From a virus, in IMG/VR virus record IMGVR_UViG_3300047496_000059, positions 1 to 38,104 of that record: DNA of 38,104 bases. One strand, given 5' to 3'. Both the position numbers and the translations under genes were made by a program. Position 1 is the stretch's first letter, and each line of letters begins with the position of its first letter. Under the pieces are notes generated by a model, which was not told the origin of the DNA, ran no database searches, and saw only the letters and a program-made list of their open reading frames with translations. Of this stretch, positions 3,231 to 38,104 are shown one piece after another.

Positions 3231-3572
3231 TTATTCTGCATCTCTGGCTTGCGCTATTGATACATATTTCGAATGAAGTAATTGAAGCAATTGTCCATCC
3301 GTAGCGGTACCAATTACGTTACCGCTAGAATCGAGTAAATTAAATGTAGTTGTTGGATCGGTTACAACATAGCTAAGCAGTGCCATAGTTACTGGGGCTA
3401 CAACCACCGAACCGTCCGATTGAGCTAAAACCTGTTGCTCAATAATGTTCACAGTAGGGATATTTTGTAATGGGTTTGCTTGATTTATTTGTATTTGAAC
3501 GCTAATTTGACTAGGTGCGATCCATTTTGTGTTTGTGCCTGGGGCGATTACGGGCTGATAATTGTTACTCAT
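3231..3572 (-). CDS. Hypothetical late protein, possible fibre accessory
   Basis: This 113-aa protein is rich in Gln, Asn, Ile and Val and has no signal peptide or membrane segment. The ATG overlaps the stop of the secreted fibre-like gene by 4 nt, so the two are translationally coupled. Its C-terminal third (FNLLDSSGNVIGTATDGQLL) reads like a beta-rich structural segment. I do not recognise a family. Position at the end of the fibre cluster suggests a chaperone or accessory protein for the preceding fibre, but nothing in the sequence proves it. Confidence 0.6.
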   Translation of the reverse strand: MSNNYQPVIAPGTNTKWIAPSQISVQIQINQANPLQNIPTVNIIEQQVLAQSDGSVVVAPVTMALLSYVVTDPTTTFNLLDSSGNVIGTATDGQLLQLLHSKYVSIAQARDAE

Positions 3573-4450
3573 TGAATCCTCACTAGGTCTAAAGTTCTAT
3601 TTGTACACGTTCCTGTGCCGCCGCTTACGTGCCACTGAATTGTGATTGCATTACTTCCGTTTGCTACAAGAATAGCATTGGTTGCCACTGGAATATCTAA
3701 GGTAGACGCTAAACCTAAGTTTACAAAAGGAATAATGACCCTTTGCGTATGTGTTAATAAAGTAGCCCCGTTATAAATACCCAATGTTATAGATTGAGCG
3801 CCATTGCTTTGGCTACACCAAGAGGAAAAAGTTACCAAATATGTACCGGCAACTGGGGTTATAGTCATGCTGGTAAGTAAAACATCTGTGGTGGAGGCCG
3901 TACTTTCTGCCGAGGTCGAGTTTACCTCATAATTTCCTAAAACCGGAACGGTAGAGCCAGACCATGACAAAGCACCCGCGCCGTTATTGGTGAGAACTCC
4001 TGTACCTTGGGCCGATGGCCAAGTGATAAAATAGGCTGTGGTAGTTGGCGCAGCGTTTTGAAGGATGTACCCGGCACTTGAACCGTTGATTAGAATATTA
4101 CCTACTCCCGCAGTACCATTAACAACCAAAGTATAATTTGGTGAGTTGGTATCAATTCCAAGACGATGATTGGTTCCGTCCCAAAATAGGTTAGCATTAT
4201 CCTGAGTGAGTATTGAACCGTTGTAATAGGGTATAGACCCGGTAGTCCAGGAAGTAGTTCCAGTCCCGCCCCCGGATGTCGATAGTGTTCCAAGGCTAAA
4301 AATTGCTCCCGTGTGCGTTCCCGTAAAGTTTGGAAACCGATAGTTCCATGTAACGATGTCGCTTGCGTCTGACGAACTCTTCGAAGTGGTAGGAGGATAA
4401 GTACTCGCAAGTGATAATGATGATATTAATAATAGAAATAATAATTTCAT
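3569..4450 (-). CDS. Fibre-like protein with signal peptide and C1q-like C terminus
   Basis: Starting at the ATG at 4450, which shares ATGA with the previous gene's stop, the product is 293 aa and begins MKLLFLLLISSLSLAS. This is a textbook Sec signal peptide with likely cleavage after SLA. An ATG 5 codons upstream would bury it behind MDTN. The next region is typical phage fibre repeat sequence (TLSTSGGGTGTTSW, FWDGTNHRLGIDTNSPNYTL). Residues about 175-293 form a beta-rich block (SMTITPVAGTYLVTFSSWC, ITLGIYNGATLL) resembling C1q/TNF-like fibre tips. Virion fibres normally lack export signals, so this product may go to the periplasm or outside the cell. Secretion is an inference. Confidence 0.7.
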   Translation of the reverse strand: MKLLFLLLISSLSLASTYPPTTSKSSSDASDIVTWNYRFPNFTGTHTGAIFSLGTLSTSGGGTGTTSWTTGSIPYYNGSILTQDNANLFWDGTNHRLGIDTNSPNYTLVVNGTAGVGNILINGSSAGYILQNAAPTTTAYFITWPSAQGTGVLTNNGAGALSWSGSTVPVLGNYEVNSTSAESTASTTDVLLTSMTITPVAGTYLVTFSSWCSQSNGAQSITLGIYNGATLLTHTQRVIIPFVNLGLASTLDIPVATNAILVANGSNAITIQWHVSGGTGTCTNRTLDLVRIQ

Positions 4451-5229
4451 GAGGTTAGTATCCATTGAACATTAACCGAAACTGTACCACTAAGTGCGAT
4501 AAAGTGAAGGTAATTCCCCGCTCCTACTGGTAGAAATCCAGAGTCCCGGCCTGGCTCCATAAGCAAACCTAAAGTCGAGGAAAGAATACTGCTTGTAGAA
4601 TTACTTATTCCCCATCGAATATTAGTTGTATTACTACTGTCTGATTCGAACATCACTCCTATAGCATTGGTAGGAGCAACTAGAGACGACTCAGTTGTAG
4701 TTACTGATTGGGTAGGTGAGAGTTTAGAATTAGCATTTACGGGTGTCTGTTCGGTCCCGTTAGTTACGTTTACATTAAGCGATCCACTAGTTGAGCTGAT
4801 CGAATTACCCGAACCGTCAAAAAGCCATGCTTGGCTCAAAAATCCTGCCGCTATTTGGCTATAGACCTGTTCTTTACCAACAAAGGGGCCTGCACCCCAT
4901 GACACCGTGGCGGTGCCAGAAGTCCAGGCTGTTGCAATGACTTGGATCTGATACCAAGCGGCGGCATTTACGATTATAAACGCATTAACGGTGGTCGAGG
5001 TATTGTTATAAAGACCATTAGCATTAGAGAAAAAAACAAGCTGCGTAAATACGCCGTCCCCGTTATTGCCCTGAACTTGTAGCGTGCCGGACCAAATCCC
5101 AGTAATGTTGAAAATAATAGTTCCTTTACCGGAAGTGGAAGCAACCACTTTGCCACCGTTGGCCGCAATTGTCCCAATCCCGGTAATCTCACTTTCAATA
5201 ACTGGTAGGCTTGAATTAAAATCCCCCAT
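4447..5229 (-). CDS. Fibre-associated beta-sandwich protein
   Basis: This 260-aa Ser/Thr/Asn-rich protein begins MGDFNSSLPV, like the N terminus of the adjacent 379-aa protein (MADYNSSLPV), suggesting a shared assembly tag. Residues about 25-125 (GTIIFNITGIWSGTLQVQGN, then WTSGTATVSWGAG) match the sandwich pattern seen in the small proteins at 7220 and 10888. The C terminus (GISNSTSSILSS, PVGAGNYLHFIALSGTVSV) is also beta-rich. It is part of the coupled fibre cluster, with stop and start codons overlapping on both sides. Likely a virion receptor-binding component; no exact family recognised. Confidence 0.65.
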   Translation of the reverse strand: MGDFNSSLPVIESEITGIGTIAANGGKVVASTSGKGTIIFNITGIWSGTLQVQGNNGDGVFTQLVFFSNANGLYNNTSTTVNAFIIVNAAAWYQIQVIATAWTSGTATVSWGAGPFVGKEQVYSQIAAGFLSQAWLFDGSGNSISSTSGSLNVNVTNGTEQTPVNANSKLSPTQSVTTTESSLVAPTNAIGVMFESDSSNTTNIRWGISNSTSSILSSTLGLLMEPGRDSGFLPVGAGNYLHFIALSGTVSVNVQWILTS

Positions 5230-10500: not shown

Positions 10501-10888
10501 CCGCAGTAGTGGGTAGATTGAAGTTATACGTCCCTGCAACGGCCTGAGGAAGAATGGAGATAATGCCAGACCCACTACCTCGAACCTGTAAAGATAGAAG
10601 GTTTAGAGAAGCTGCTGTTAAATGTCCGCTTCCGTCTGTAGTAAAGTTTGGCTCTCCGCCCAAAACTCCACCGCTGTTAAAGATGATATCCCCGGAAACG
10701 CCAGGTGCGGGTGCACCACCGCCAGGACTCGCCAGCAATACCCAGCTTGTCCCATTCCATTCATACAGATTGCCAGAATCAGCCGCTACGGCTAGTTGTC
10801 CCGCTTGAGTTCCCGCAGGAAACACCGAAAACGTCGAATAGATACTAACTCCGCCCCCACCGCCGGGAGGCCACGCAAAAGTGGTCAT
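7589..10888 (-). CDS. Main tail fibre, 1099 aa
   Basis: Largest protein of the window. It begins with a Gly-rich head (WPPGGGGGV) and an LYEWNGTSWVLL attachment-type repeat. Residues about 155-385 form a repetitive shaft, with TTITGILQGNGTAISAA and TTITGLLQGNGTAISAA copies and the widespread fibre motif YLSSADWNTFNSKQ. Residues about 465-650 resemble a carbohydrate-binding module fold (NPGNGDFETGTTSGWALG at the start, ATLYIDDFYVGPQ at the end). Two C-terminal beta-rich blocks (about 805-950 and 960-1099; SASTGLYTIPVTGLYDISAS, NTSTGLYTCPVSGKYRISAI) are C1q/TNF-like tips. Function: host surface recognition. The CBM-like middle suggests glycan binding; this is inferred from pattern, not from alignment. 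Confidence 0.85.
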   Translation of the reverse strand: MTTFAWPPGGGGGVSIYSTFSVFPAGTQAGQLAVAADSGNLYEWNGTSWVLLASPGGGAPAPGVSGDIIFNSGGVLGGEPNFTTDGSGHLTAASLNLLSLQVRGSGSGIISILPQAVAGTYNFNLPTTAGTVGQVLTSQGGIASAMTWTTPTTGTVTAVSVASVNGLAGTSSGGSTPALSLSTTITGILQGNGTAISAASTTGSGNVVLATSPTLVTPVLGTPSSGLLTNCTGLPLNTGTTGQLLLTNGGIYPLGSNTQVLTITGGAPVWAAPATSGTVTSVSVVSGNGLAGTVANPTTTPAISLSTTITGLLQGNGTAISAATTGNLTDVGTDGITITGGTNSVLGSGTSIAQHVADTTHNGYLSSADWNTFNSKQPAFSALTTDGIIYATSASAIASTSAGTTAYPLVSNGGGGSPATFQQLSLTAGVTGILPIANGAMPQGNSSASKNYLSTYIPSFGSGIGNPGNGDFETGTTSGWALGTIGALTNALPTGTPTFGSGASGNLSISAIGSGSQISGNYSLSYASSAATTQGNMVASSAFYIDAEDQAKVLTVKFYYKVASGASNTNFSGGASNSFAWAAYDVTNSSWLSSAGNFGLVQTTGQGYCTGTFQTNATTQQIRFCFYNANATSGAATLYIDDFYVGPQTAPSGPAMTDSTVLTTVPSSGGLGTLSSVTYAYKRLGDQLTVQFSFSPGTVTASTAFIGIPSGISIDYTKVTNQSNGGIVGSFTQADSSGTPASVGSGNKTGILFVDGSTSNQIFISISTASFVFTKQNGSAIFNSNTWMSGYFTVPIVGWSSNSVMSADSNTRVIGAQMNGVPTGTLTGSFNIAKFPTVITDKSGSYSASTGLYTIPVTGLYDISASLDVETSSAFTVNQYIIIAIYKNGSEIYRGPVFYIPTTTATASPTVNAKSLAFNAGDTAGIYVLTSASTATYTGGQNTLSNFTIGLENGPAVITATESVNMSYTDSSIGSIGSSQGVYKYTTRLYDSHNAYNTSTGLYTCPVSGKYRISAILTTAATNISTGNSFLLAIYHNGSQYVANQVYSYGGTSDWQVLVSASVPCLGGDSLAIYTSCTPSTTAYYGAAYNNLSIERVGN

Positions 10889-11271
10889 CAGTTAAGATCC
10901 TTCCCGAATACAGAAACAATCAAACCCCCGGTGCTCGCGGAATTCACATAGCTAAAAGCCAAATAAGACCATGGGAATTGGTTCAAATCGATCCCATAGC
11001 TTAAAGCTGCCCCTGACGGTTGTGTGAGAGATGGTGAGAATGTGAGAGCAAAGAAAGAGACATTATCATTAGATCCAAGAACGCTTAACGTGCCCGTAGG
11101 AGTACCCGAAAACGTCACCTGACAGCCAATATTGTCGATGTTGCCTACATAGGTCGATGGAGAGCTTTGATAGGTATTAGTCCCGGTAACCACTAAAGGG
11201 GTTATACCTTGCGTTAAATCAGTTGCAGGCTGATACGGATAGTAAATCGGTAAGGTCTTCTTAGATCCCAT
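10888..11271 (-). CDS. Small beta-sandwich fibre accessory protein
   Basis: This 127-aa protein is paralogous to the one at 7220-7588 (shared GTPTGT-SVLGS-D core and C-terminal strand LIVSVFGKDLN). It is the first gene after late promoter-like element C and has a strong ribosome-binding site (GGGGGAG two bases before the ATG). It overlaps the main fibre gene by one base (TGATG). Probably a fibre adaptor or decoration protein. Confidence 0.65.
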   Translation of the reverse strand: MGSKKTLPIYYPYQPATDLTQGITPLVVTGTNTYQSSPSTYVGNIDNIGCQVTFSGTPTGTLSVLGSNDNVSFFALTFSPSLTQPSGAALSYGIDLNQFPWSYLAFSYVNSASTGGLIVSVFGKDLN

Positions 11272-11311
11272 TTCTCCCCCTTATGGGTTAAGCGGCTGTA
11301 AACCGCATAGT

Positions 11312-11334
11312 CTCATAAGAGGGGAAAAGGTAGC
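11312..11334 (-). promoter_or_regulatory. Late promoter-like element C
   Basis: Reading leftward: GCTACCTTTTCCCC followed by TCTTATGAG. It shares the exact 12-mer GCTACCTTTTCC with element B at 26345. It ends 40 bp upstream of the fibre-cassette start (11271), in the only sizeable gap of this region (11272-11378). A small GCGG/CCGC hairpin (about 11291-11306) follows in the leader. The T/A-rich TTATGA may act as a -10-like box; no sigma-70 -35 box is evident. Confidence 0.6.
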
Positions 11335-24928: not shown

Positions 24929-26221
24929 TTAGAACTCCTGCAACTGAACTTGTATTACTCCATTATGACCTGGGCGGATACAATACAGGTTTCCGTACAT
25001 CCCCACGCGAAGCTCGGCAGAGTCGACCCCTGGTACCCTTAAAATTTCGATTTCATCCATGTATTTTAAGATATGAGGAGCCGGATTCTGACTTCTCAGA
25101 ACCCATGAATCCATTTCAAGACAGTAAATCACACCATCTGGACAGTTTCTGTCAGGAAATACAGACATTACGGTATTCGCACCGTTAACCTGGACACCTC
25201 TAAATCCAATGTCTCCGATCTTCTCGTCAATATACTGGACTTTAGAGCCTAAACTGACGATTAGAGCGGTATAGGTTGCATAGGAACAAATCCCTGTGTC
25301 GACGCGTCCACCGTTAAGAGCAATGCGTCCAGTACCCCCTAGCAATGCTTCCTCTAAACTCAGACTTCGACCGTCAAAAAATACGCCTGCCAAGCGTTGA
25401 ACATCCAAATTTCTGTTCACTCCGAAGAATGAATCAGATACAGGGGGTCCACCAATCGGAAGCCAAGCAGCAAATCCAGCAATCTTTAACAGGCTGTTGG
25501 TGCCTGCCGATCCCGAAGGCTGAAAGTTGTTATTGCTAGAGCTCTGCGTATCACCTTGTACAGCGAGGTAATAAGCGGCCCCGGTCCAAGCTGCCGATGG
25601 ACTGGAAGTCGATCCAACCCCAGCTAGGACGCCTGTATTACGATTTACAGAGTTTAGAACTACGGTATCGCTGGAAAGAGTCCCGCTTCCATCAAAGTTC
25701 TGAACCGCAACCAATGTAAAGCCCACTTCGAACTGAACCGCATCATCTGGATTGCTCAGGGTAATAGTCCAAGCAGTACCAGTGTTACTAAATGCGCTCA
25801 TTTGACCGATGGTGCCGCCACCGTTTCTAAAGATAGCTGAAGCAATACGGTTGACTGCGATCTGGAATGCAGCGTCAATCATTAACTCCGCACCGTCAAT
25901 GAACGTCCCCGGATCGGTCTGAGCTGCGGCGAGAAGCTGCCCATCGATACTAGCAACAGAGAAGTCAGCAACACGAGTAACCAGGAATTCAGCTACACTA
26001 GGTGAATACTGGTTATTATAAGCATTCGCAAAGGTAGCAGACACGCCGCCAGTAAGGCCGAATACGACAGGCACAGGGTAGTATTTCCCTGGGAATTTCT
26101 CTTGTTTGTTTAACATTGCCAGTGTAGGATTGTCCTTATAGGTTAGCCACTGGACTTTCTGATCATCATATAATTCTTTCAAAATACCCGACACTGCCGC
26201 CTGGGTAATAGGAGCTGACAT
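24929..26221 (-). CDS. Major capsid protein
   Basis: The product is 430 aa when started at the ATG at 26221, which has a GAGGT ribosome-binding site 6 nt before it. An upstream ATG at 26251 adds 10 residues but has no such site. The N terminus (MSAPITQAAVSGILKELYDD) and the segments NPTLAMLNKQEKFPGKYYPV, AQTDPGTFIDGAELMIDAAF and the C-terminal LEMDSWVLRSQNPAPHILKY are typical of HK97-fold podovirus coat proteins. A Ser/Gly/Thr-rich central part (about 140-245) looks like an insertion domain. It stands alone as a transcription unit, with element B upstream and a terminator downstream, as expected for the most abundant virion protein. Confidence 0.85.
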   Translation of the reverse strand: MSAPITQAAVSGILKELYDDQKVQWLTYKDNPTLAMLNKQEKFPGKYYPVPVVFGLTGGVSATFANAYNNQYSPSVAEFLVTRVADFSVASIDGQLLAAAQTDPGTFIDGAELMIDAAFQIAVNRIASAIFRNGGGTIGQMSAFSNTGTAWTITLSNPDDAVQFEVGFTLVAVQNFDGSGTLSSDTVVLNSVNRNTGVLAGVGSTSSPSAAWTGAAYYLAVQGDTQSSSNNNFQPSGSAGTNSLLKIAGFAAWLPIGGPPVSDSFFGVNRNLDVQRLAGVFFDGRSLSLEEALLGGTGRIALNGGRVDTGICSYATYTALIVSLGSKVQYIDEKIGDIGFRGVQVNGANTVMSVFPDRNCPDGVIYCLEMDSWVLRSQNPAPHILKYMDEIEILRVPGVDSAELRVGMYGNLYCIRPGHNGVIQVQLQEF

Positions 26222-26323
26222 AAATTTACCTCGATTGATGAAGTTAGACATTCTTGTGAATGCCTAGATTCCTTAGTCGGGCGTAATGTCTTTGAGTGCC
26301 TTATATCTAGAATGACGCGGTCT

Positions 26324-26345
26324 CTACATAAGTGGAAAAGGTAGC
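26324..26345 (-). promoter_or_regulatory. Late promoter-like element B (capsid gene)
   Basis: Reading leftward: GCTACCTTTTCCAC followed by TTATGTAG. It lies 103 bp upstream of the capsid start codon, in the 161-bp divergent gap before the alginate lyase gene. Here a TTGCAA can be placed 17 bp before TATGTA, so host RNA polymerase may also use it. The rest of the gap (26222-26323) has no gene and becomes the capsid leader. Confidence 0.65.
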
Positions 26346-26382
26346 GTTTGCAAAATATGACCATCAGAATTAACGTGCGCAT

Positions 26383-27762
26383 ATGAAACTAAAAAATCTG
26401 CTCATCCTGCCAATCTTGCTCATTTCGTCTAACTGCTTTGCCTTTTCTCACCCGGGAGTGCTCGTGTCCCAGTCTCAGTTAGACTTTATGAAGCAACAAG
26501 CATTAGCCGGGGCAGAACCCTTTGCATCGACCTATGCTAAGGCTAAAGCTAGTAAATGGGGATCTTTGACCTATGCCGTACAAGGCCCCCCCTCAGGTGG
26601 GACGATTGACTGTGGATCTTATTCAAATCCAAATATAGGCTGCACGCTTGAGGATGATGATTCTACCGCTGCCCTAACTCAGGCACTTTTATGGTATATT
26701 TCGGGTAATCAAACCTACGCCAACAACGCGATTGCCATTATGAATGCCTATTCCAAGGGCTTAAAGGGCGGGCATACCAACACAAATGCCACCGTTCAAG
26801 CTTCCTGGTCGGCTAGTAAATTCCCCGCTGCTGCTGAGATCATTCGTTACTCAAATGCTGGATGGGCTGACGCTGACTTTACAGCCTTTCAGTCTTTACT
26901 TACAAATCAGTATCTCAATTCCCTAACTGCCGTGCCGGGACTAGTGAATAAAAACGGTAACTGGGCTATGACCACGATTGGATCTTGGTTCGGCATAGCC
27001 GTAGTCACTGAGAACCAGGCCCTCTTTCAGCAGGCAGTATCAGCTCTTCAGGGAGCTATCCCGGCCTACTTCTATTACTTCCCGGAAGACGGTGCCACTC
27101 CTAAGACAAACCCCCTTGTGATAGGTAAATGGAATGGACAGAAAGTCTTTGACGCTAGCGTTAGCGGAATCTGCCAAGAGACGTGCCGGGATTTGCAGCA
27201 TACTCAATTCGGAATTTCTGGAGCTTTCAATGCCCTTGAAACGGCTTATGCGCAGGGAACTGATCTCTACACTCCGTTTGCGAATCGACTCACTACTGCT
27301 CTCGAATTCAACGCCGGACTCTTCCCACTCGGATTTAGTGACATGTCATCTGGAGGTACAAAACAAGGGTCGTCTGTAAATATTTGTGGCGGCAACGTGA
27401 CCCTGGTTTTGAACCCTACATTTGAAATTGCCTATAACGCATACGCTAACCGACTCGGTTACTCTCTGCCTAACACCCTTGCTTATCTGACTGGTTCAGT
27501 TCGAAAGATCACGTACCAAGAGAATGCGCCCTCTGAGAACCATCCAATGGTATTTGAGACCCTGCACCATGGTGGAAGCCCTGGAGTTGTCCCACCCGGC
27601 ACTACACCCGCGCCCACACCTAGCTCTTCCCCTACACCGACCCCTGCACCAAGTGCTCTATCTTGCATAGCTAGCAAGCTTAAGCCGACTAAAGCGCGCA
27701 TCGATGTCACGTTTTCAGGTGCCCCGGCTTCATTTGAGGTTAACGGAGTCAATTGTCAGTGA
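26383..27762 (+). CDS. Secreted alginate lyase (polysaccharide lyase family 5-like)
   Basis: This 459-aa protein carries a Sec signal peptide (MKLKNLLILPILLISSNCFA, cleavage near residue 20). The alginate-lyase fold spans about residues 22-395 and includes HPGVLVSQSQLDFMKQQALA, NKNGNWAMTTIGSW (about 189-202; the N-W active-site region) and the family signature CRDLQHTQFGISGAFNALE (268-286) followed by QGTDLY. A Pro/Thr/Ser linker (about 400-423) leads to a 36-residue tail with two Cys. Expected action: beta-elimination cleavage of alginate outside the cell. It is the sole rightward gene within the late block, between capsid and scaffold, without an evident ribosome-binding site. It looks like an acquired moron. 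Confidence 0.88.
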   Translation: MKLKNLLILPILLISSNCFAFSHPGVLVSQSQLDFMKQQALAGAEPFASTYAKAKASKWGSLTYAVQGPPSGGTIDCGSYSNPNIGCTLEDDDSTAALTQALLWYISGNQTYANNAIAIMNAYSKGLKGGHTNTNATVQASWSASKFPAAAEIIRYSNAGWADADFTAFQSLLTNQYLNSLTAVPGLVNKNGNWAMTTIGSWFGIAVVTENQALFQQAVSALQGAIPAYFYYFPEDGATPKTNPLVIGKWNGQKVFDASVSGICQETCRDLQHTQFGISGAFNALETAYAQGTDLYTPFANRLTTALEFNAGLFPLGFSDMSSGGTKQGSSVNICGGNVTLVLNPTFEIAYNAYANRLGYSLPNTLAYLTGSVRKITYQENAPSENHPMVFETLHHGGSPGVVPPGTTPAPTPSSSPTPTPAPSALSCIASKLKPTKARIDVTFSGAPASFEVNGVNCQ

Positions 27763-27833: not shown

Positions 27834-28517
27834 CTAAAAACAACTTTTATGGGTGTAGCCTATCGAAACCCCATCGGTATTAATACCGTCTTTATTGCAA
27901 CAATTTGTTTGTTGAAGCTTTCTTACTGCCGTGTCGCAATCATTATAGATTCTGTTTTCTACATCGCATTTGTAGCCAAGATTCTTGGACGATTGACAGC
28001 TATGTTGACCCTTGGCATTAACTACTTTCATCCCTGGCTGCATTAGCATAGCTTTTACCGGGTCTAAGTCAGGTACTACTCCAGGGCCATGAAGGATCTT
28101 ACCATCTGGATAGTTAGTCTCATTTACGATCAGTGAACCATCCCGTCCATTAGCTTCCTCTTCAATGTAATCCAGAGCAATTCTATAGACTATGCCATAC
28201 CGGGCAAGACTTGGATCTGCCTTGACCACTTGAAAGTATTCTTTATCCTTTGCCAGAGCATCATAGCCCATCCAATGACTGACTTTCCGGTATCTATTTT
28301 TCCCAAATTGCCATGCTGTGCCAAATTTGAGGCCCCGTTCCTCGACATCATCGTCGGGAGAAATATCATCGGGTAAATCTTTTACATACTGAACTCGAAT
28401 GACATTTGCCTGACCGGGAAACGGATTCATCTTAGGACCATCGGGACTATGTACATCACCAATTGCGCCACACGAAATATTTAACAACGAGAACAGCAAA
28501 GCACATTTATACTTCAA
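27834..28517 (-). CDS. Cys-rich predicted lipoprotein, 227 aa, TTG start
   Basis: The frame opens at TTG (28517), with GGGAG nine bases upstream and no suitable ATG. The N terminus (MKYKCALLFSLLNISCGAIG) is a short lipoprotein-type signal with Cys16 as the probable lipidated residue, although the lipobox is not perfect. The mature part is hydrophilic, and its C-terminal third is Cys-rich (HSCQSSKNLGYKCDV, YNDCDT, TNCCNKDG). It lies between scaffold and capsid genes beside the alginate lyase, an insertion hot spot. Phage lipoproteins often block superinfection or receptors; that role is only inferred here. Confidence 0.65.
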   Translation of the reverse strand: MKYKCALLFSLLNISCGAIGDVHSPDGPKMNPFPGQANVIRVQYVKDLPDDISPDDDVEERGLKFGTAWQFGKNRYRKVSHWMGYDALAKDKEYFQVVKADPSLARYGIVYRIALDYIEEEANGRDGSLIVNETNYPDGKILHGPGVVPDLDPVKAMLMQPGMKVVNAKGQHSCQSSKNLGYKCDVENRIYNDCDTAVRKLQQTNCCNKDGINTDGVSIGYTHKSCF

Positions 28518-28537: not shown

Positions 28538-29458
28538 TTAAAAACCACCGTTTTTAAGCTTCTCAATCAACCTCTCCCTCTTCTGAGCAAACGTTTCCGT
28601 CATCTTAGTAGTAGATGCAACCGTAGCCGTAGCCCTTGGCGGTAAAGTCCTGGCAGGCCCTTGTTGTAATGTCCTACTTCTCTCAGGCGGACGAGGAGAT
28701 ACTTCAGCTTTTAATGGTTGATCTTCTATCTTAGGTTGTCTCTTTTTAATAGTAGTACTCATAGTTTTATCTTCTTCTTCGTAAAATTGTTCTACCAACA
28801 ACGCAGCTTCTTCAGGCGTTGGAACATCGGCACCCTGACTCGAGTCTACAATAGCCTTAACAGTCTCATAAATAAGCTCTTGAGCCGCCGGACCATGATA
28901 AGCACAATATTCAAACTTAAGAGGATTCCCCGTAATGATCTTAGCTACATTGTCCCGGTATTGATCTATAACCCGTTTATCTGCCTGTTCTTGGGCTTCC
29001 TGTTGTTTCTTGGCTTGTGCATCCTCAAATGCTTTAATCCTCGCCTCAGTGGCACTCTCGGCAGCCTTAGCCGCCTTTTCTTCAGGGGATAGCTCAACAG
29101 GCTGATTAGCTGCCATATAGTTAAAAATGTCTGTCTCAGAAAAGCCTAGAACTTTTAATGCCGCGACTGGATCAGTTTGCTTAAGTTGTAGATATTTTTG
29201 ATATTCTTGCGCAGCAGCTTGGATCTTTTCCCTCTCTGCGGCCACTTCCTGCCTCTGTCTCTGTAAGTCTGCTTCTTTGCGTGCAAGCTGGACAAATGCC
29301 TTGCTTTTAAGCGCGGAAGGAGCCGGAGATTCGGAGGTCCCCGGTCCAGAATCTTCGACTCCGACCGTGCTATGATCATTGTCTTGTGTGGAGACATTAA
29401 GGTTCGGAGTAAGATCGGTACTCCCTTGGGCTAAAGCTAACGCACTTTCATTACTCAT
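28538..29458 (-). CDS. Scaffolding protein
   Basis: This 306-aa highly charged protein is rich in Glu, Gln, Lys and Ala, with a long coiled coil at about residues 50-100 and 125-165 (LARKEADLQRQRQEVAAERE, EARIKAFEDAQAKKQQEAQE). It ends in a basic helix (TFAQKRERLIEKLKNGGF), as expected for scaffold C termini that bind coat protein. It follows the portal gene with a 4-nt overlap and precedes the capsid gene, apart from the inserted lyase/lipoprotein module. Position and composition together make the call. Confidence 0.75.
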   Translation of the reverse strand: MSNESALALAQGSTDLTPNLNVSTQDNDHSTVGVEDSGPGTSESPAPSALKSKAFVQLARKEADLQRQRQEVAAEREKIQAAAQEYQKYLQLKQTDPVAALKVLGFSETDIFNYMAANQPVELSPEEKAAKAAESATEARIKAFEDAQAKKQQEAQEQADKRVIDQYRDNVAKIITGNPLKFEYCAYHGPAAQELIYETVKAIVDSSQGADVPTPEEAALLVEQFYEEEDKTMSTTIKKRQPKIEDQPLKAEVSPRPPERSRTLQQGPARTLPPRATATVASTTKMTETFAQKRERLIEKLKNGGF

Positions 29459-31395
29459 TGCAAGACCCCCGGAACATTTTGGATTAAATTGTTAACTGGT
29501 GGCGGCTCGGGTGCCGCTTGAGGGACTCCTTGAGCCTGCTCGGCTCCTTGGCCGTCAGTTTGAGCTTCTTGGGCTATGATTCCAGGTATCTTAGACAAAG
29601 CTTCTGCATTCACCTGCGCGATGTAGTCTCGTACCAGCTGAATCTTGTCATCTGGACAGTTATAGTACTGAGCATAGTTGATGTATTTGATACCCAATTG
29701 AACGGCAAGCTCGGCATCATGAAATCCAGGCTCAAAGCGGGTAACTTCACCCTTTTCAAGCATGTTCTCAAAGATCTGAGTAATACGATCCTCCGCGGAG
29801 TTAGCCAAAGAATCAGCCATTTCTACGTCTGGCATATCCATAAGCCTTCTACTCGACCTAGGGGTGATCATTCCCGATTGGGTGAGTTCTTGTACCTCCG
29901 CCAAACGGCCTGTAAGATCGTCAGACAGAGAACTAGTAGGATAAGCTTTGAGCACGTACTGCTCTTCATCAAGTTGCACATCAGCCCAGTCAATAGTCTC
30001 AACAAAACGAGTATCAGGGAAAACCACTTCATACTTGCCTACCCTGCTGTAGATGTCTTTGACTACGTTGATGGCTTGTTTAGCAATTTCCAGGCAAAAG
30101 TCTTCCATGTTCTGTTGCATGAAAATAAATCGGTCATCAGTGATTTGATTCAAAGTCCGCATAGCCTTCCCGGACTTAACTGACATAGGCACTTCACCCG
30201 ATGAGTTGAGCTGATTAGCCCCCTCTTGCTGATATCCCCAATCTCTTAGCTTATCAATCCACGCGTCTAACTCTGGATTCGTAGCTGGCGGCGTGATATA
30301 TTGAGGGGCCACACCTGAGTAATGGATGACGGTACCCACCTCATTGTCTAAGTGTTGGCTTACGACCTTAGATCCATTCTCTACCAGGATCTTAAACGCT
30401 GACTGCATCCAAAGTGCTCTTTGCTTGAGCATCATGCATCGGTTTATTTCACCCTGGATGGCCATCAATCGCTCACAAGCACCTTGACCATTCCATCCAA
30501 GCTTGCGATTCACATAACGGAGATGAGGAAACGGGAAATAGTCCTTATCATAATCCTCGGCCAAAGCCCCATCACCAACGCAAAATACGTGGACACCATC
30601 TTTAGCCAGAGGTCCTGACTTCAAATGCCAGCTTTCAGTCACCTGGATGATATCAACCGCAGTTCCTTGACCCCCTATTTCTTGATAGTTAGCGGGACTT
30701 ACCGTTTTGATCTCTTCTTCTAATTCAGGGAGGACCTGAAGCGCTATATCCCTATCCATCAGCCTTACCCTATGTAGCTGCCTTGGCTCACTAGTAAGAG
30801 ACTCAATAGTGTCCACAAACAACTCATGAGGCAATACTCGATCAATGCAAACCTTGTCGTCATTTTCATAAACTTGTACAAATCCATCTCCCCATACCCC
30901 CGCATCGTTCCAAGAAATGATCGATTTACGATGAACGTTTTGCTGGTAAAACAACCCCCCGCAGAACTTAGTCAGTTGTTTAGCCTTCTTCTGAACCTTC
31001 CAATCAGCCCCATTAGTAATAAATGTAGGGATAACCTTGTTCTTGGCCATCTTAGCCTCTAAAGTCTCTACTACGGAAGAACACAGATTATAAGATATCC
31101 TCTGACTCATAGGAGAGTTATTTGCGGCACTAGCCCGAGTAAAAGCTGTACCAATTAGGTTGTACATGCTTGTATGCCCATATAACCTAGTTGAGACTGT
31201 CAATTGCTCTATCCTACTGCCCTGGTGTTGCTTGATGAATAAAATCGTCGCTGCAATAGCAGGCGCCATCTCTTTCTCATCTAAAACCCACCATCTGAAG
31301 TTCACATTGGTCTCAGCTAGGTTTTTTGGTTCCCTGGTAACCTTTCCTTTTGAATCGGTCTGAGTCATGTTCGAACGTTCTACTGTTTTACTCAT
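29455..31395 (-). CDS. Portal protein
   Basis: This 646-aa protein has features of podovirus portals: RISYNLCSSVVETLEAKMAK near residue 100, VWGDGFVQVYENDD (about 168-181), DRVLPHELFVDTIES, a central AIQGEINRCMMLKQRALWMQ segment and a helical stem-like part. A Gln/Pro-rich tail (GQGAEQAQGVPQAAPEPPPV) follows, which may form a crown or be disordered. It sits between packaging genes and scaffold, with ATGA overlaps on both sides. The portal is the dodecameric DNA channel at one capsid vertex. A 221-aa antisense frame within it is a shadow. Confidence 0.85.
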   Translation of the reverse strand: MSKTVERSNMTQTDSKGKVTREPKNLAETNVNFRWWVLDEKEMAPAIAATILFIKQHQGSRIEQLTVSTRLYGHTSMYNLIGTAFTRASAANNSPMSQRISYNLCSSVVETLEAKMAKNKVIPTFITNGADWKVQKKAKQLTKFCGGLFYQQNVHRKSIISWNDAGVWGDGFVQVYENDDKVCIDRVLPHELFVDTIESLTSEPRQLHRVRLMDRDIALQVLPELEEEIKTVSPANYQEIGGQGTAVDIIQVTESWHLKSGPLAKDGVHVFCVGDGALAEDYDKDYFPFPHLRYVNRKLGWNGQGACERLMAIQGEINRCMMLKQRALWMQSAFKILVENGSKVVSQHLDNEVGTVIHYSGVAPQYITPPATNPELDAWIDKLRDWGYQQEGANQLNSSGEVPMSVKSGKAMRTLNQITDDRFIFMQQNMEDFCLEIAKQAINVVKDIYSRVGKYEVVFPDTRFVETIDWADVQLDEEQYVLKAYPTSSLSDDLTGRLAEVQELTQSGMITPRSSRRLMDMPDVEMADSLANSAEDRITQIFENMLEKGEVTRFEPGFHDAELAVQLGIKYINYAQYYNCPDDKIQLVRDYIAQVNAEALSKIPGIIAQEAQTDGQGAEQAQGVPQAAPEPPPVNNLIQNVPGVLQ

Positions 31396-31993: not shown

Positions 31994-32187
31994 TAGTTCA
32001 CCGGAAACTTAAGCTCTGTTTGTTTGCCACATTCGCATTCAAAGGTAATAATTGCGTAATACTCTGTCTCATCATCAGGCTGGCTAAGATGCACATAGTC
32101 CCGTCCGCACTCACACATAAACTCGTGCTTGAGCTTCTTATTATAGTCTTTATCTGAAAGTTCGTAGTGCTTCAGTATTCTGCTCAT
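31993..32187 (-). CDS. Small zinc-ribbon protein
   Basis: This 64-aa protein has two CxC pairs (EFMCECGRDYVHL at about 23-35 and TFECECGKQTELKF at about 48-61), which can bind one zinc ion in a ribbon fold. It lies directly after the large terminase gene with a 4-nt overlap. Function unknown; a DNA-packaging accessory or regulator is suggested by position only. Confidence 0.65.
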   Translation of the reverse strand: MSRILKHYELSDKDYNKKLKHEFMCECGRDYVHLSQPDDETEYYAIITFECECGKQTELKFPVN

Positions 32188-33662
32188 TGCTTCCTCTTAT
32201 TAATATAGTAATTAATCACGTCGTCTTCTTCCATTCCAGATGTATTAAATATATCTAAACCCTGCTCTTTCTTTTCATCCATTTCAATCTGCTTATCTAT
32301 GTTTTGGGAATGGATATTAGCTTGGTACTCCAGCCATTCTTTGGTGCCTGGTTTGCCTTTAAATTTAGGAGGATCTGAGAGCATAGGACGACTCATAAGC
32401 CCATATCGGATCATGTCGTAAGCATCATCACCGGATAAAGGATCGCCATCAACGGCGTCTATCTTAAGCACATCTTCTACGTGCAAGGGATCGTGTTCCA
32501 TACGGGTGAGTGTGTCAAATGACACCGGGCAGGTTTTGAAGATCTTAAAACGCGGCTCTTGGTTATCGATACAAGCTAGGAAGCTTCTGACTTGGGATGC
32601 TCCTTGAACCCGATCAATCTTAGCCCGTGATAGTATAAGGTTATGCTTAAGAAACTCTTCTGCGATAGTTGGCGTAGACCCAGACTGTATCGTACCCTTT
32701 TTTGCCCAGGAATCCCAACCCGCACTAATATAAGATAGCTTCTCTGTGTCCGGGAACTTGTTGATTTCTTTTGCAAACTGATCAATTCGAAGCTTAGCTT
32801 GAACCAACTCCCGATATTGATAGACCGTTCCATCCTCATCTACTGCGAACCAACCAAAAGCAGCAGGATGGTTATAGCCATAGTCGTAAGCACCGAAAGT
32901 ATTCCAGTGAGACGGGATTGGGAACGGTTTAACGATGTGACGTTCTCTAGAGATTTCTGAAAAGAACTGTCCTGCGAAGATGTCCCACGAGCCAAATCTA
33001 AAAGCTTTTCGTAATGTTTCATTTGGCTCTGATTCCAACCGTGCGACATACTCAGGGTCATTATCAATAAGGGCAGCATTATCGTCAACAAGTGCTTGTA
33101 TGAAGGCATAATCATCAGGTCTTTCTCTTTCGTTGTATCTTTTCTCTACAAATAGCCTCTTCAACCATTTATGTCCAGGTCCGCCCGGATTACCAGTTAA
33201 AATAGTGCGAGCGGGGATTCCCGGAACTGAGGAACGGTTAGAACCCATCAGCTTACGAACCATGGCCTCCGTCCATTGACCGGCCTCATCAATGCCTAGA
33301 TCGTGAAACTCTCTACCTTGGTAGAGGTCGATGTCGGACTCGTTGGAACAATGACAAAACTGGAGTGTTGACCCGTTCGGAAGTTCGAGTAGCTTTTTCC
33401 CAGCGGACCAGAATTGACGGAGAATATGATGTTGTCCGAGAAGTGGTCTAATGTGGTTAGCATCCAACTCCGCATACGTCTTTCTAAATATAGCCCCATG
33501 GCTATTTGGATACTTAAAGCGCCTAGCAAGCAACAGATTACGCAAAGCATAAGATTTACCTCCACCTTTAGCCCCCCCAAAGAATGTAACGGGTTTAGCC
33601 TCTATAGCCTCATAGAACTGAATCTGCTTAGGCTGTAGGTTAACTTCCAGAGTTTGCAGCAT
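32184..33662 (-). CDS. terL: Large terminase subunit
   Basis: This 492-aa protein has a full ATPase and nuclease. Walker A is GGAKGGGKS (29-37), Walker B is DLGIDEAG (121-128, Asp125/Glu126), and the coupling motif is TGNPGG (156-161). The RNase H-like nuclease has acidic residues in GAYDYG (Asp260), AGWDSWA (Asp317) and GDDAYDMIRYGL (411-422). It pumps DNA into the prohead and cuts it, together with the small subunit and the portal. Length and motifs are normal for the family. The start overlaps the small-subunit candidate by 23 nt. Confidence 0.93.
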   Translation of the reverse strand: MLQTLEVNLQPKQIQFYEAIEAKPVTFFGGAKGGGKSYALRNLLLARRFKYPNSHGAIFRKTYAELDANHIRPLLGQHHILRQFWSAGKKLLELPNGSTLQFCHCSNESDIDLYQGREFHDLGIDEAGQWTEAMVRKLMGSNRSSVPGIPARTILTGNPGGPGHKWLKRLFVEKRYNERERPDDYAFIQALVDDNAALIDNDPEYVARLESEPNETLRKAFRFGSWDIFAGQFFSEISRERHIVKPFPIPSHWNTFGAYDYGYNHPAAFGWFAVDEDGTVYQYRELVQAKLRIDQFAKEINKFPDTEKLSYISAGWDSWAKKGTIQSGSTPTIAEEFLKHNLILSRAKIDRVQGASQVRSFLACIDNQEPRFKIFKTCPVSFDTLTRMEHDPLHVEDVLKIDAVDGDPLSGDDAYDMIRYGLMSRPMLSDPPKFKGKPGTKEWLEYQANIHSQNIDKQIEMDEKKEQGLDIFNTSGMEEDDVINYYINKRKQ

Positions 33663-35502: not shown

Positions 35503-35685
35503 ATGAGTTGGTTATCTGCTAATTGGGGTGCTCTTCTGTCAATTCTATCCATGATCCTTGCGATTATTGTGGCCATTGCTCAATTATTCCATGCTAATTC
35601 GGTGGCTCAGATTGCTGCTCAGATTGAGGCTATTATTAATCAGATGAACCCACCTAACCCACCTAGCCCTCCTCCCGCTGTATGA
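35503..35685 (+). CDS. Small holin-like membrane protein
   Basis: This 60-aa protein has one strongly hydrophobic segment (NWGALLSILSMILAIIVAIA, about residues 7-26), a short amphipathic helix (VAQIAAQIEAIINQM) and a Pro-rich tail (NPPNPPSPPPAV). Ribosome-binding site AAGGAG, eight bases upstream. It is first in the rightward cassette and overlaps the next gene by 4 nt. Size and topology allow a small class III-like holin or a pinholin, but many unrelated small phage membrane proteins look the same. Confidence 0.55.
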   Translation: MSWLSANWGALLSILSMILAIIVAIAQLFHANSVAQIAAQIEAIINQMNPPNPPSPPPAV

Positions 35686-35921
35686 CTGTCATTGAGGGAG
35701 TAGTTGCATTTTTTAAGGCGTTGCCGGAGTTGTTGTCGCTCCTTTCCCGTTTAGGGGCACTTTTAGACTCGATTATTAAGTATGCACATCAGAACGATAT
35801 TAACGGCTGGCTCGATAAAGTTGAAAAGAATGTGGATGGACTAAAAAATGCTAAAACCAGAGAAGAAAAGCTTACTGCGGCTCAAAATATTGTTGATATC
35901 GTTCGCGGGATTGGTCCTTAA
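35682..35921 (+). CDS. Small amphipathic protein of the rightward cassette
   Basis: This 79-aa protein has a Leu/Phe-rich N-terminal half (VVAFFKALPELLSLLSRLGA) that reads as an amphipathic or weakly membrane-associated helix, then a charged helical half (WLDKVEKNVDGLKNAKTREE). It starts within the stop of the holin-like gene (ATGA) and overlaps the lipoprotein gene by 74 nt. The pairing with a nested lipoprotein gene recalls spanin pairs, but there is no clear transmembrane anchor. Function unknown. Confidence 0.55.
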   Translation: MTVIEGVVAFFKALPELLSLLSRLGALLDSIIKYAHQNDINGWLDKVEKNVDGLKNAKTREEKLTAAQNIVDIVRGIGP

Positions 35922-36249
35922 CTGCGCACCATCCGGTCCTAGTATAACTGGGTGCGTTGTAGATGCAGTTAATGCTGGCTATCGATGTGTGACTGAGCCC
36001 GATATCAAATCATTCAAGACTTGGGACCAGGGCAAAGGACTTAAATGCTGTTCTCCTGATGACTTAGAACTCTTTCTTAAGCAGTGCAAACTCGGAAATG
36101 TGTATGTCCCGGTATTGTGTGAATTCAATCCTTCCAGTCAAAAATTTGACTGTTCAAAAGACTATTCTGTTGAGATTACTGAAGCAGACAACTACTTTTG
36201 CATAAATGAACTTGATCTCAGAAGAACGACCGAGCGGTGCAAGCATTAA
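35848..36249 (+). CDS. Cys-rich predicted lipoprotein, 133 aa
   Basis: The N terminus (KKSLLRLKILLISFAGLVLN, then CAPSGP) is a signal segment ending at Cys28, with an atypical Asn at -1. The mature part has about ten Cys residues (TGCVVDAVNAGYRCVTEP, GLKCCSPDDL, KQCKLG, VLCEFN, KFDCSKD, YFCINE), suggesting disulphides in the periplasm. It starts inside the preceding gene and ends inside the RusA gene. Its Cys-rich makeup resembles the lipoprotein at 27834, although no alignment is evident. Outer-spanin or superinfection-exclusion roles are possible. Confidence 0.6.
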   Translation: MLKPEKKSLLRLKILLISFAGLVLNCAPSGPSITGCVVDAVNAGYRCVTEPDIKSFKTWDQGKGLKCCSPDDLELFLKQCKLGNVYVPVLCEFNPSSQKFDCSKDYSVEITEADNYFCINELDLRRTTERCKH

Positions 36250-36694
36250 TACGCACTATGAGCAGATAGCGTATTTCCCGAACCTGCCATTACCCCCAAG
36301 CTCTAACAATCAGTACTTTTTAGTGAGAAGAGGTCCTAAAACGTTTCATGTGCCCAGTGATGAACTGAAGGCATTTAAGGCCCTTATGGACCAGTATGCA
36401 GCTAAGGAGGGAATGCCCTTTACCTTCAATTCTAACCTGGTAAAGGCTTGGGTATCTGAACCGGCTGGTTTAAGTATTAAAGCCGTGTTCTTTTTTCATA
36501 AAGAAAGAGTCATGACTAAGCAGAATCTACCTAAGAGATTAGACTGCTCTAACCGGATTAAGGCACTCCATGACAACCTGTGTCGTATTATAGGGATTGA
36601 TGACAAGTGGTTTTTTAAGGTGGAAGCTGAGAAGGCAATTTGCCCCCCCAGCGTCCAAGAGACTACATGTGTAGAGATTTCGAGGTATTCTTGA
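36206..36694 (+). CDS. RusA-like Holliday junction resolvase
   Basis: This 162-aa protein has the RusA pattern: an N-terminal NLPLPPSSNNQYF (about 26-38), then RLDCSNRIKALHDNL (111-125), then IIGIDDKWFFKVEAEK (128-143). In E. coli RusA the catalytic region reads DxDNxxK followed by DD. Here the first Asp (113), Asn, Lys119 and the later DD (132-133) are kept, but the second Asp is Ser115, as in some family members. Expected role: cutting branched recombination or replication intermediates before packaging, with the ERF annealing protein. It overlaps the lipoprotein gene by 44 nt, so the start is uncertain. Confidence 0.75.
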   Translation: MNLISEERPSGASINTHYEQIAYFPNLPLPPSSNNQYFLVRRGPKTFHVPSDELKAFKALMDQYAAKEGMPFTFNSNLVKAWVSEPAGLSIKAVFFFHKERVMTKQNLPKRLDCSNRIKALHDNLCRIIGIDDKWFFKVEAEKAICPPSVQETTCVEISRYS

Positions 36695-37772: not shown

Positions 37773-38046
37773 CGGAACCTGATCCTGTACCAGAACCTAT
37801 ACCAGAACCAGAACCTGATCCTATACCAGAATCATAAACGTAACAGTAACCGAAACCGTCTCCGGAACCGGAACCGTAACCGTAACCGTAACCGCAACCG
37901 GAACCGTCACCGGAACCGTCACCGGAACCGTAACCGCCACCGTCACCGTAACCGCCACCGGAACCAGAACCGTAACCGTAACCGCCACCGGAACCAGAAC
38001 CGTCTCCGGAACCGGAACCGGAACCGTAAGCGATTACTGCGTCCAT
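37750..38046 (-). CDS. Gly-rich hexanucleotide-repeat protein, 98 aa
   Basis: Almost every second residue is Gly, alternating with Ser, Tyr or Asp (start MDAVIAYG, end GSGSDAGSGYG). It is encoded by 6-bp units reading GGT plus a variable codon. No domain, signal peptide or known function; such Gly/Tyr/Ser tracts are disordered and can be adhesive or phase-separating. The number of units differs between the two contig ends (one unit), so length variation occurs without loss of frame. It starts within the end of the DUF6948-like gene (copy at 137-448), so it is expressed as part of the early operon. Confidence 0.6.
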   Translation of the reverse strand: MDAVIAYGSGSGSGDGSGSGGGYGYGSGSGGGYGDGGGYGSGDGSGDGSGCGYGYGYGSGSGDGFGYCYVYDSGIGSGSGSGIGSGTGSGSDAGSGYG

Positions 38047-38104
38047 ACCGGAACACTTTCTATGTTCTTTTTGGCAATATTAGTAATGGGAATCATTTCT
38101 ATAA
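37904..38104. repeat. Right copy of terminal sequence overlap
   Basis: This is the counterpart of 1-207, with three instead of four GGAACC units near 38005-38024. It includes the N-terminal half of the Gly-rich gene and the last codons of the DUF6948-like gene. Removing one copy gives a circle of about 37.9 kb. Confidence 0.9.

Follow-up and report, generated by a model that had tools for sequence, protein, structure and literature searches.

Why does a phage carry a gene for a secreted polysaccharide lyase in inverted orientation between its head genes? The DNA analysed here, an IMG/VR virus record of 38104 bases (the window), has genes for TerL, portal, scaffold-like and capsid proteins in this order, all on the minus strand, with a plus-strand lyase gene between the last two. 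The initial annotation had described this gene as an inverted moron for an alginate lyase; we asked what the enzyme is, how it came to this site and what it may do for the phage.

The head gene cluster and its insert

The features of the region are as follows.

32184-33662, minus strand: TerL gene of the head cluster
29455-31395, minus strand: portal gene of the head cluster
28538-29458, minus strand: scaffold-like gene bordering the cargo slot on its upstream side (label given by position and conservation in relatives)
27834-28517, minus strand: second gene of the insert, 227 aa, with signal- or lipoprotein-like N-terminus and Cys-rich C-terminus
26383-27762, plus strand: gene for a predicted secreted polysaccharide lyase of a PF05426 clade, 459 aa (profile match, fold and clade)
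26222-26382, no strand: intergenic region separating the divergent capsid and lyase genes, containing the capsid-gene leader
24929-26221, minus strand: major capsid protein gene (NF033394, phrog_9953, relatives)

The scaffold-capsid order is indeed interrupted by an inverted lyase gene, as had been claimed, but the gap holds two genes, not one: the gene at 27834-28517 lies on the same strand as the head genes and is convergent with the lyase gene. We found no homologue of its protein, and PADLOC gave no match to either of the two cargo genes. It is fair to say that no other gene runs rightward in 33 kb: apart from the lyase gene, only a small cluster at 35503-36694 has credible genes on the plus strand. 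Signal- or lipoprotein-like N-termini were also seen at 3569-4465 (minus strand) and 35848-36249 (plus strand); the phage may export several proteins.

Profile searches produced no family match for the scaffold-like gene. The capsid protein matched NF033394 (capsid_maj_Podo) at 54 bits, below the 80-bit cut-off, as well as phrog_9953, and is 61-91% identical to that of relatives. No named phage matched the capsid protein; the TerL relatives among named phages were all at <60% and do not indicate a host. The start of the capsid gene is most likely at 26221, preferred over 26251 because of a GAGG Shine-Dalgarno sequence and the starts of homologues; therefore the minus-strand ORF 26179-26382 was considered spurious and rejected as a gene.

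The capsid leader of the window carries TTTTCCAC...TTATGTAGA at 26323-26339 on the minus strand; in relatives this leader adjoins the cargo. A TTTTCC...TAT..AGA block is common to the leader before the capsid gene in the window (26222-26340, minus strand) and in L066, L077, L079, L080, L082, L085, L086 and L089. A second such block was seen at 11311-11328 (minus strand), ∼40 bp upstream of the gene 10888-11271, and could represent a class of phage promoter. Capsid leaders of many relatives have a hairpin with an AGACAT-type loop and paired stem changes (GACCTT/AAGGTC, TGCCC/GGGCA, CATCC/GGATG); its score was ≥9 in 9 of 26 leaders (shuffled mean 4.4, maximum 9), and the hairpin is weak in the window.

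A strong Shine-Dalgarno sequence was not found before 26383, nor a sigma-70-like promoter upstream of the lyase gene (26222-26382); sites in the region were at chance level only. The divergent orientation with respect to the capsid gene would imply that the lyase gene has its own promoter.

The scaffold-capsid gap in relatives

Relatives were gathered by TerL and capsid searches and grouped at 95% identity of the capsid gene, which gave 25 clusters besides the window. The gap was empty (103-143 bp) in 15 of the 25 clusters and filled in the other 10. Eight of the nine protein ORFs in the slot of relatives were inverted; the slot statistics refer to the 25 clusters, and the orientation bias is given without a formal null. 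The occupants are listed below.

L065: two inverted ORFs, one of them a BamE-like lipoprotein
L069: one inverted ORF, putative, without family support
L074: two inverted ORFs, one of them BamE-like
L078: tRNA-His and a short ORF without family support, both inverted
L079: inverted Tad2-like gene (71.5 bits)
L085: inverted gene for an Acb2/Tad1-hairpin protein (28 bits against a 27-bit cut-off)
L062/L064, L063, L073: forward tRNAs
L087: forward MerR-like ORF

The BamE matches were below the cut-off, and the second ORF of L065 and of L074 had no family support. The tRNA genes lie exactly in the slot (Gln in L062 and L064, Asn in L063 and L073, His in L078).

Neither the lyase gene nor the gene at 27834 was present in any of the 25 clusters; in this lineage only the phage of the window carries the lyase in the slot, and the relatives without it keep the whole head gene set. 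As proposed in the initial annotation, the locus was compared with relatives lacking the gene: with the site empty in 15 clusters, the lyase appears foreign to the head cluster and is, like a moron, an extra gene missing from the same site in relatives. The slot was missing from 51 loci of more distant relatives (capsid identity 39-46%): the gaps there were mostly short, and none held an inverted gene that was credible. In nucleotide alignments with empty sites only capsid-proximal scraps aligned, and the edges of the insert could not be fixed.

By these comparisons of gene content, this phage lineage uses the gap between scaffold and capsid genes repeatedly as a slot for inverted cargo, counter-defence families included. 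The Tad2 and Acb2/Tad1 genes occupy in L079 and L085 the same inverted slot as the lyase gene in the window; their products are intracellular counter-defence proteins with sequences unrelated to the lyase. Tad2 and Acb2/Tad1 are nucleotide sponges. One could speculate further that the slot, next to a conserved capsid leader, is dedicated to inverted accessory genes with an anti-defence load (Tad2-like, Acb2/Tad1-like, envelope lipoproteins), the lyase being counter-defence cargo against the barrier of the extracellular matrix; we put this forward as a tentative extension, well short of probable. If the reading of the lyase favoured below is right, ORFs of unknown function inverted in this gap are good candidates for counter-defence or for action on the host envelope. 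A different inverted insertion near the capsid gene was seen in L006 (18191-19715, minus strand), where two inverted collagen-like ORFs with G-P-Q repeats lie downstream of the capsid gene.

Family, fold and active site of the lyase

The ORF 26383-27762 is intact. Judged by eye, its N-terminus, MKLKNLLILPILLISSNCFA|FSHPG, is built like a Sec signal peptide (residues 1-20), and C19 makes a non-classical lipobox possible. The catalytic domain spans residues ∼21-400; residues 93-309 matched PF05426 (Alginate_lyase) in a profile search with E-value 2.7e-7 and 30.8 bits, above the curated cut-off of 22.2 bits. A Pro/Thr/Ser-rich linker (∼404-425) is followed by a short tail with two Cys. The initial picture of a putative secreted lyase with signal peptide, linker and two-Cys tail is borne out. 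Searches with the single sequence produced no relative in viral contigs and no meaningful match in the PDB, alignments being required in both cases; the best PDB profile match was 3nfv.

An AF2 model of the lyase (mean pLDDT 61.8, pTM 0.66, weak at 232-270 and 315-343) matched PL17, PL38 and PL5 lyases with Z 22-26 over ∼290-320 residues. The values were 24.8-24.9 for A1-III and 22.5 for AlgL, which at such a pLDDT support the fold only, and the model has the (alpha/alpha)-toroid of PL5. Among the best fold matches were the PL38 lyase BoPL38 (8bdq) and BACOVA_01668 (3nnb, 3nfv), with Z 25-26 and 10-14% identity to the lyase. We take the structural matches to the model to indicate shared fold, not shared activity.

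The active site was compared in an alignment of 32 rows, with PL5/PL38-type rows and the phage clade among them. The PL5- and PL38-type rows have NNH and a catalytic Tyr, while the phage-clade rows mostly have (G/A/T)NW and QE..RD..H, with exceptions in L003 (NH) and L094 (NL). In HMMER alignments N193 of the lyase aligns with N191 of A1-III and N242 of BoPL38, and W194 with the His next to that Asn in both enzymes. Thus, the N191-H192 pair of A1-III is replaced by Asn193-Trp194, and the column of the PL5 catalytic Tyr246 holds an invariant His273. The pairs Asn-His and His-Tyr of PL38 (N242 followed by His, and H297/Y298, in BoPL38; positions from PDB titles and alignment) are absent as well, with GNW and QH in the lyase clade against NNH and HY in PL38-like rows, e.g. 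L096. With the PL5 enzymes A1-III and AlgL the lyase shares the Pfam family, the fold (Z 22-25), a signal peptide and the conserved Asn; it differs from them in GNW for NNH, in His273 for Tyr246 and in belonging to a clade separated at 100/99. The term 'family-5-like' therefore holds for fold and Pfam family and fails for the catalytic residues; as a member of PL5 proper the lyase was rejected by its active site.

GAGase III no longer cleaved alginate once its corresponding His was replaced by Asn or Ala, and the His next to the Asn is conserved in alginate lyases of PL5/15/17/38/39 (PMC12088678). Given that GAGase III depends on this His to cleave alginate, the substrate of the phage lyase should not be taken to be alginate and may be another polymer.

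Trp and His at the positions of PL5 His192 and Tyr246 could also mean that the protein is a catalytically dead, carbohydrate-binding relative. We regard this as improbable, since the replacements are clade-wide and extend to members from bacterial polysaccharide-utilisation loci (at the first position L003 with His and L094 with Leu are exceptions), and the full set of polar clade-invariant residues, N193, Q265, E266, R269, D270 and H273, is retained in the phage lyase.

Relatives of the lyase

In the tree the lyase belongs to a ten-member PF05426 clade set apart from the rest at 100/99, and it groups with chromosomal beta-proteobacterial proteins (support 99/99 and 100/99). A relative at 58% comes from the chromosome of a Rhodocyclales MAG, where it adjoins a PL7-type alginate lyase, and one at 48% from a second Rhodocyclales genome. 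Bacteroidota relatives sit in SusC/SusD loci, the one from Sphingobacterium adjoining GH88. On alginate, therefore, the genomic neighbours of relatives point both ways, a PL7-type alginate lyase on one side and GH88 in a SusC/SusD locus on the other. We found no characterised member of the clade (GNW plus QE..RD..H), which is present in bacterial polysaccharide loci.

The nearest bacterial relatives carry further domains at the C- or N-terminus, and their gene neighbours are degradative. This bears on the site of action. The phage enzyme could work within the envelope, either in the periplasm, as AlgL does, or at the cell surface, where it would degrade host polymer during the export of that polymer; PL5 AlgL is periplasmic (PDB 4ozv title), the signal of the phage lyase is of the Sec type with no outer-membrane export signal recognised, and slot genes of relatives include lipoprotein-like envelope proteins. 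The domains and neighbours of the nearest relatives, however, fit extracellular breakdown better than a periplasmic role in biosynthesis, and we consider action within the envelope rather unlikely. To the same modest degree we allow for its consequence, an infected cell stripped of its capsule, which could alter superinfection or prevent trapping of progeny.

Two further members of the clade are phage-borne. In a virus record (L094/L095), a P2-like element, the secreted member has 551 aa; it is flanked by a P2-like gene for replication (phrog_91) and by a fragment of a portal gene (phrog_68), and adjoins an exported repeat protein. In a prophage (L196) a member of 401 aa precedes the tape-measure gene of the tail module. 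As the two fall in different parts of the clade in the tree, phages appear to have captured this clade at least two times, probably three; besides the phage of the window, no fewer than two phages or prophages did so (two virus records, with secreted cargo). The sole 'phage' match of the lyase, MT836184.1 (L002, GenBank 'Bacteriophage sp.'), was rejected: SusC/SusD and glycosidases, read by eye, make it a Bacteroides-type chromosomal polysaccharide-utilisation contig.

A recently captured bacterial gene could be a neutral or transient passenger with little effect on the phage. Its occurrence in one phage of the lineage only would agree with this, as would its GC3 of 0.467 against 0.406 ± 0.030 for other long genes of the genome and its codon-usage distance (z 2.1). 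Yet the portal gene is equally deviant in codon usage, and the foreign composition of the lyase gene is only mild. Moreover, the intact ORF keeps every clade-invariant residue, the slot has been refilled repeatedly with some occupants from known functional families, and other phages have captured members of the clade. We hold a mere passenger to be unlikely, by about as much as a dead enzyme or slightly less.

Genome completeness and lifestyle

Between positions 1-207 and 37904-38104 of the window the identity is 97.1%; a 6-bp indel falls within a low-complexity repeat of Gly/Ser/Tyr codons, and an exact copy of the last 40 bases lies at 168. An end-repeat classification tool did not class the window as having end repeats. 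Given the overlap of its ends, the genome is most likely complete, circular or terminally redundant, with a length of ∼37.9 kb. Among ORFs ≥150 aa, PHROGs matches were to replication, Erf, RusA, terminase, portal and capsid families; none of these ORFs matched an integrase, a transposase or a partition gene, and many of their proteins match no family.

A carrier-state benefit had been offered as one reading of the gene. The lyase would then serve a surviving phage-bearing cell, e.g. in feeding on or reshaping the matrix. The two other phage-borne clade members do reside in prophage-like elements. Nevertheless, with a genome that is probably complete and no integrase match among its ORFs ≥150 aa, a temperate lifestyle with lysogenic conversion is unlikely, and as the main reading we set it aside with only a small residual probability.

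Proposed role of the lyase

The explanation we favour, with some confidence, is that the gene encodes a Sec-exported polyuronate lyase of (alpha/alpha)-toroid fold, from a non-PL5 PF05426 clade with beta-proteobacterial kin, carried as accessory cargo in a lineage-specific slot and acting as a free depolymerase of matrix or capsule. Catalysis, substrate, export, timing and benefit are what we infer in the following scheme. During infection a divergent transcript of its own would give rise to the lyase, which Sec would carry into the periplasm; from there a secretion system of the host, or else cell lysis, would release it, free and separate from the virion. Its target would then be a polymer of capsule, exopolysaccharide or biofilm that contains uronic acid, which it would cleave by beta-elimination; Asn193 would neutralise the carboxylate, and His273 would stand in for the usual catalytic Tyr. 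Cleavage of the polymer would enable escape and diffusion of progeny.

The gene sits among virion genes, and podovirus depolymerases are often tailspikes (PMC6966330), so a depolymerase decorating tail or head has to be weighed too. The signal peptide and the inverted orientation speak against it, as do the fold, common to bacterial secreted enzymes, and the full head gene set of relatives without the lyase; no virion-attachment domain, whether tail-anchoring or trimerising, was recognised in the protein. We consider this the least probable of the alternatives, by a wide margin from likely. If a free exported lyase is correct, the phage has an enzyme that leaves the cell by export instead of on the virion.

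Comparison with known systems

Prophage morons, the genes of lysogenic conversion, resemble the lyase gene in being autonomous-looking foreign genes in opposite orientation and absent from relatives; the window differs from their setting in that no lysogeny genes were found. The view that phage depolymerases are normally virion-bound, from which the initial annotation started, overstates the contrast, as free, non-virion (soluble) forms are already known; depolymerase halos were described in 1956 and an Azotobacter phage alginate lyase was reported in 1977 (PMC5380687). Bacillus phage phiNIT1 has soluble PghP and LevP (PMC6966330). Like these free enzymes, the lyase is phage-encoded and would be directed against an extracellular polymer of the host. 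The GH32 enzymes of SP10, phiNIT1 and SPG24, however, have no signal peptides (PMC4595243), whereas the lyase of the window has one, belongs to another family and lies inverted in a capsid-side slot. New in the present case are a signal peptide, an enzyme clade as yet uncharacterised and a recurrent inverted slot shared with counter-defence families.
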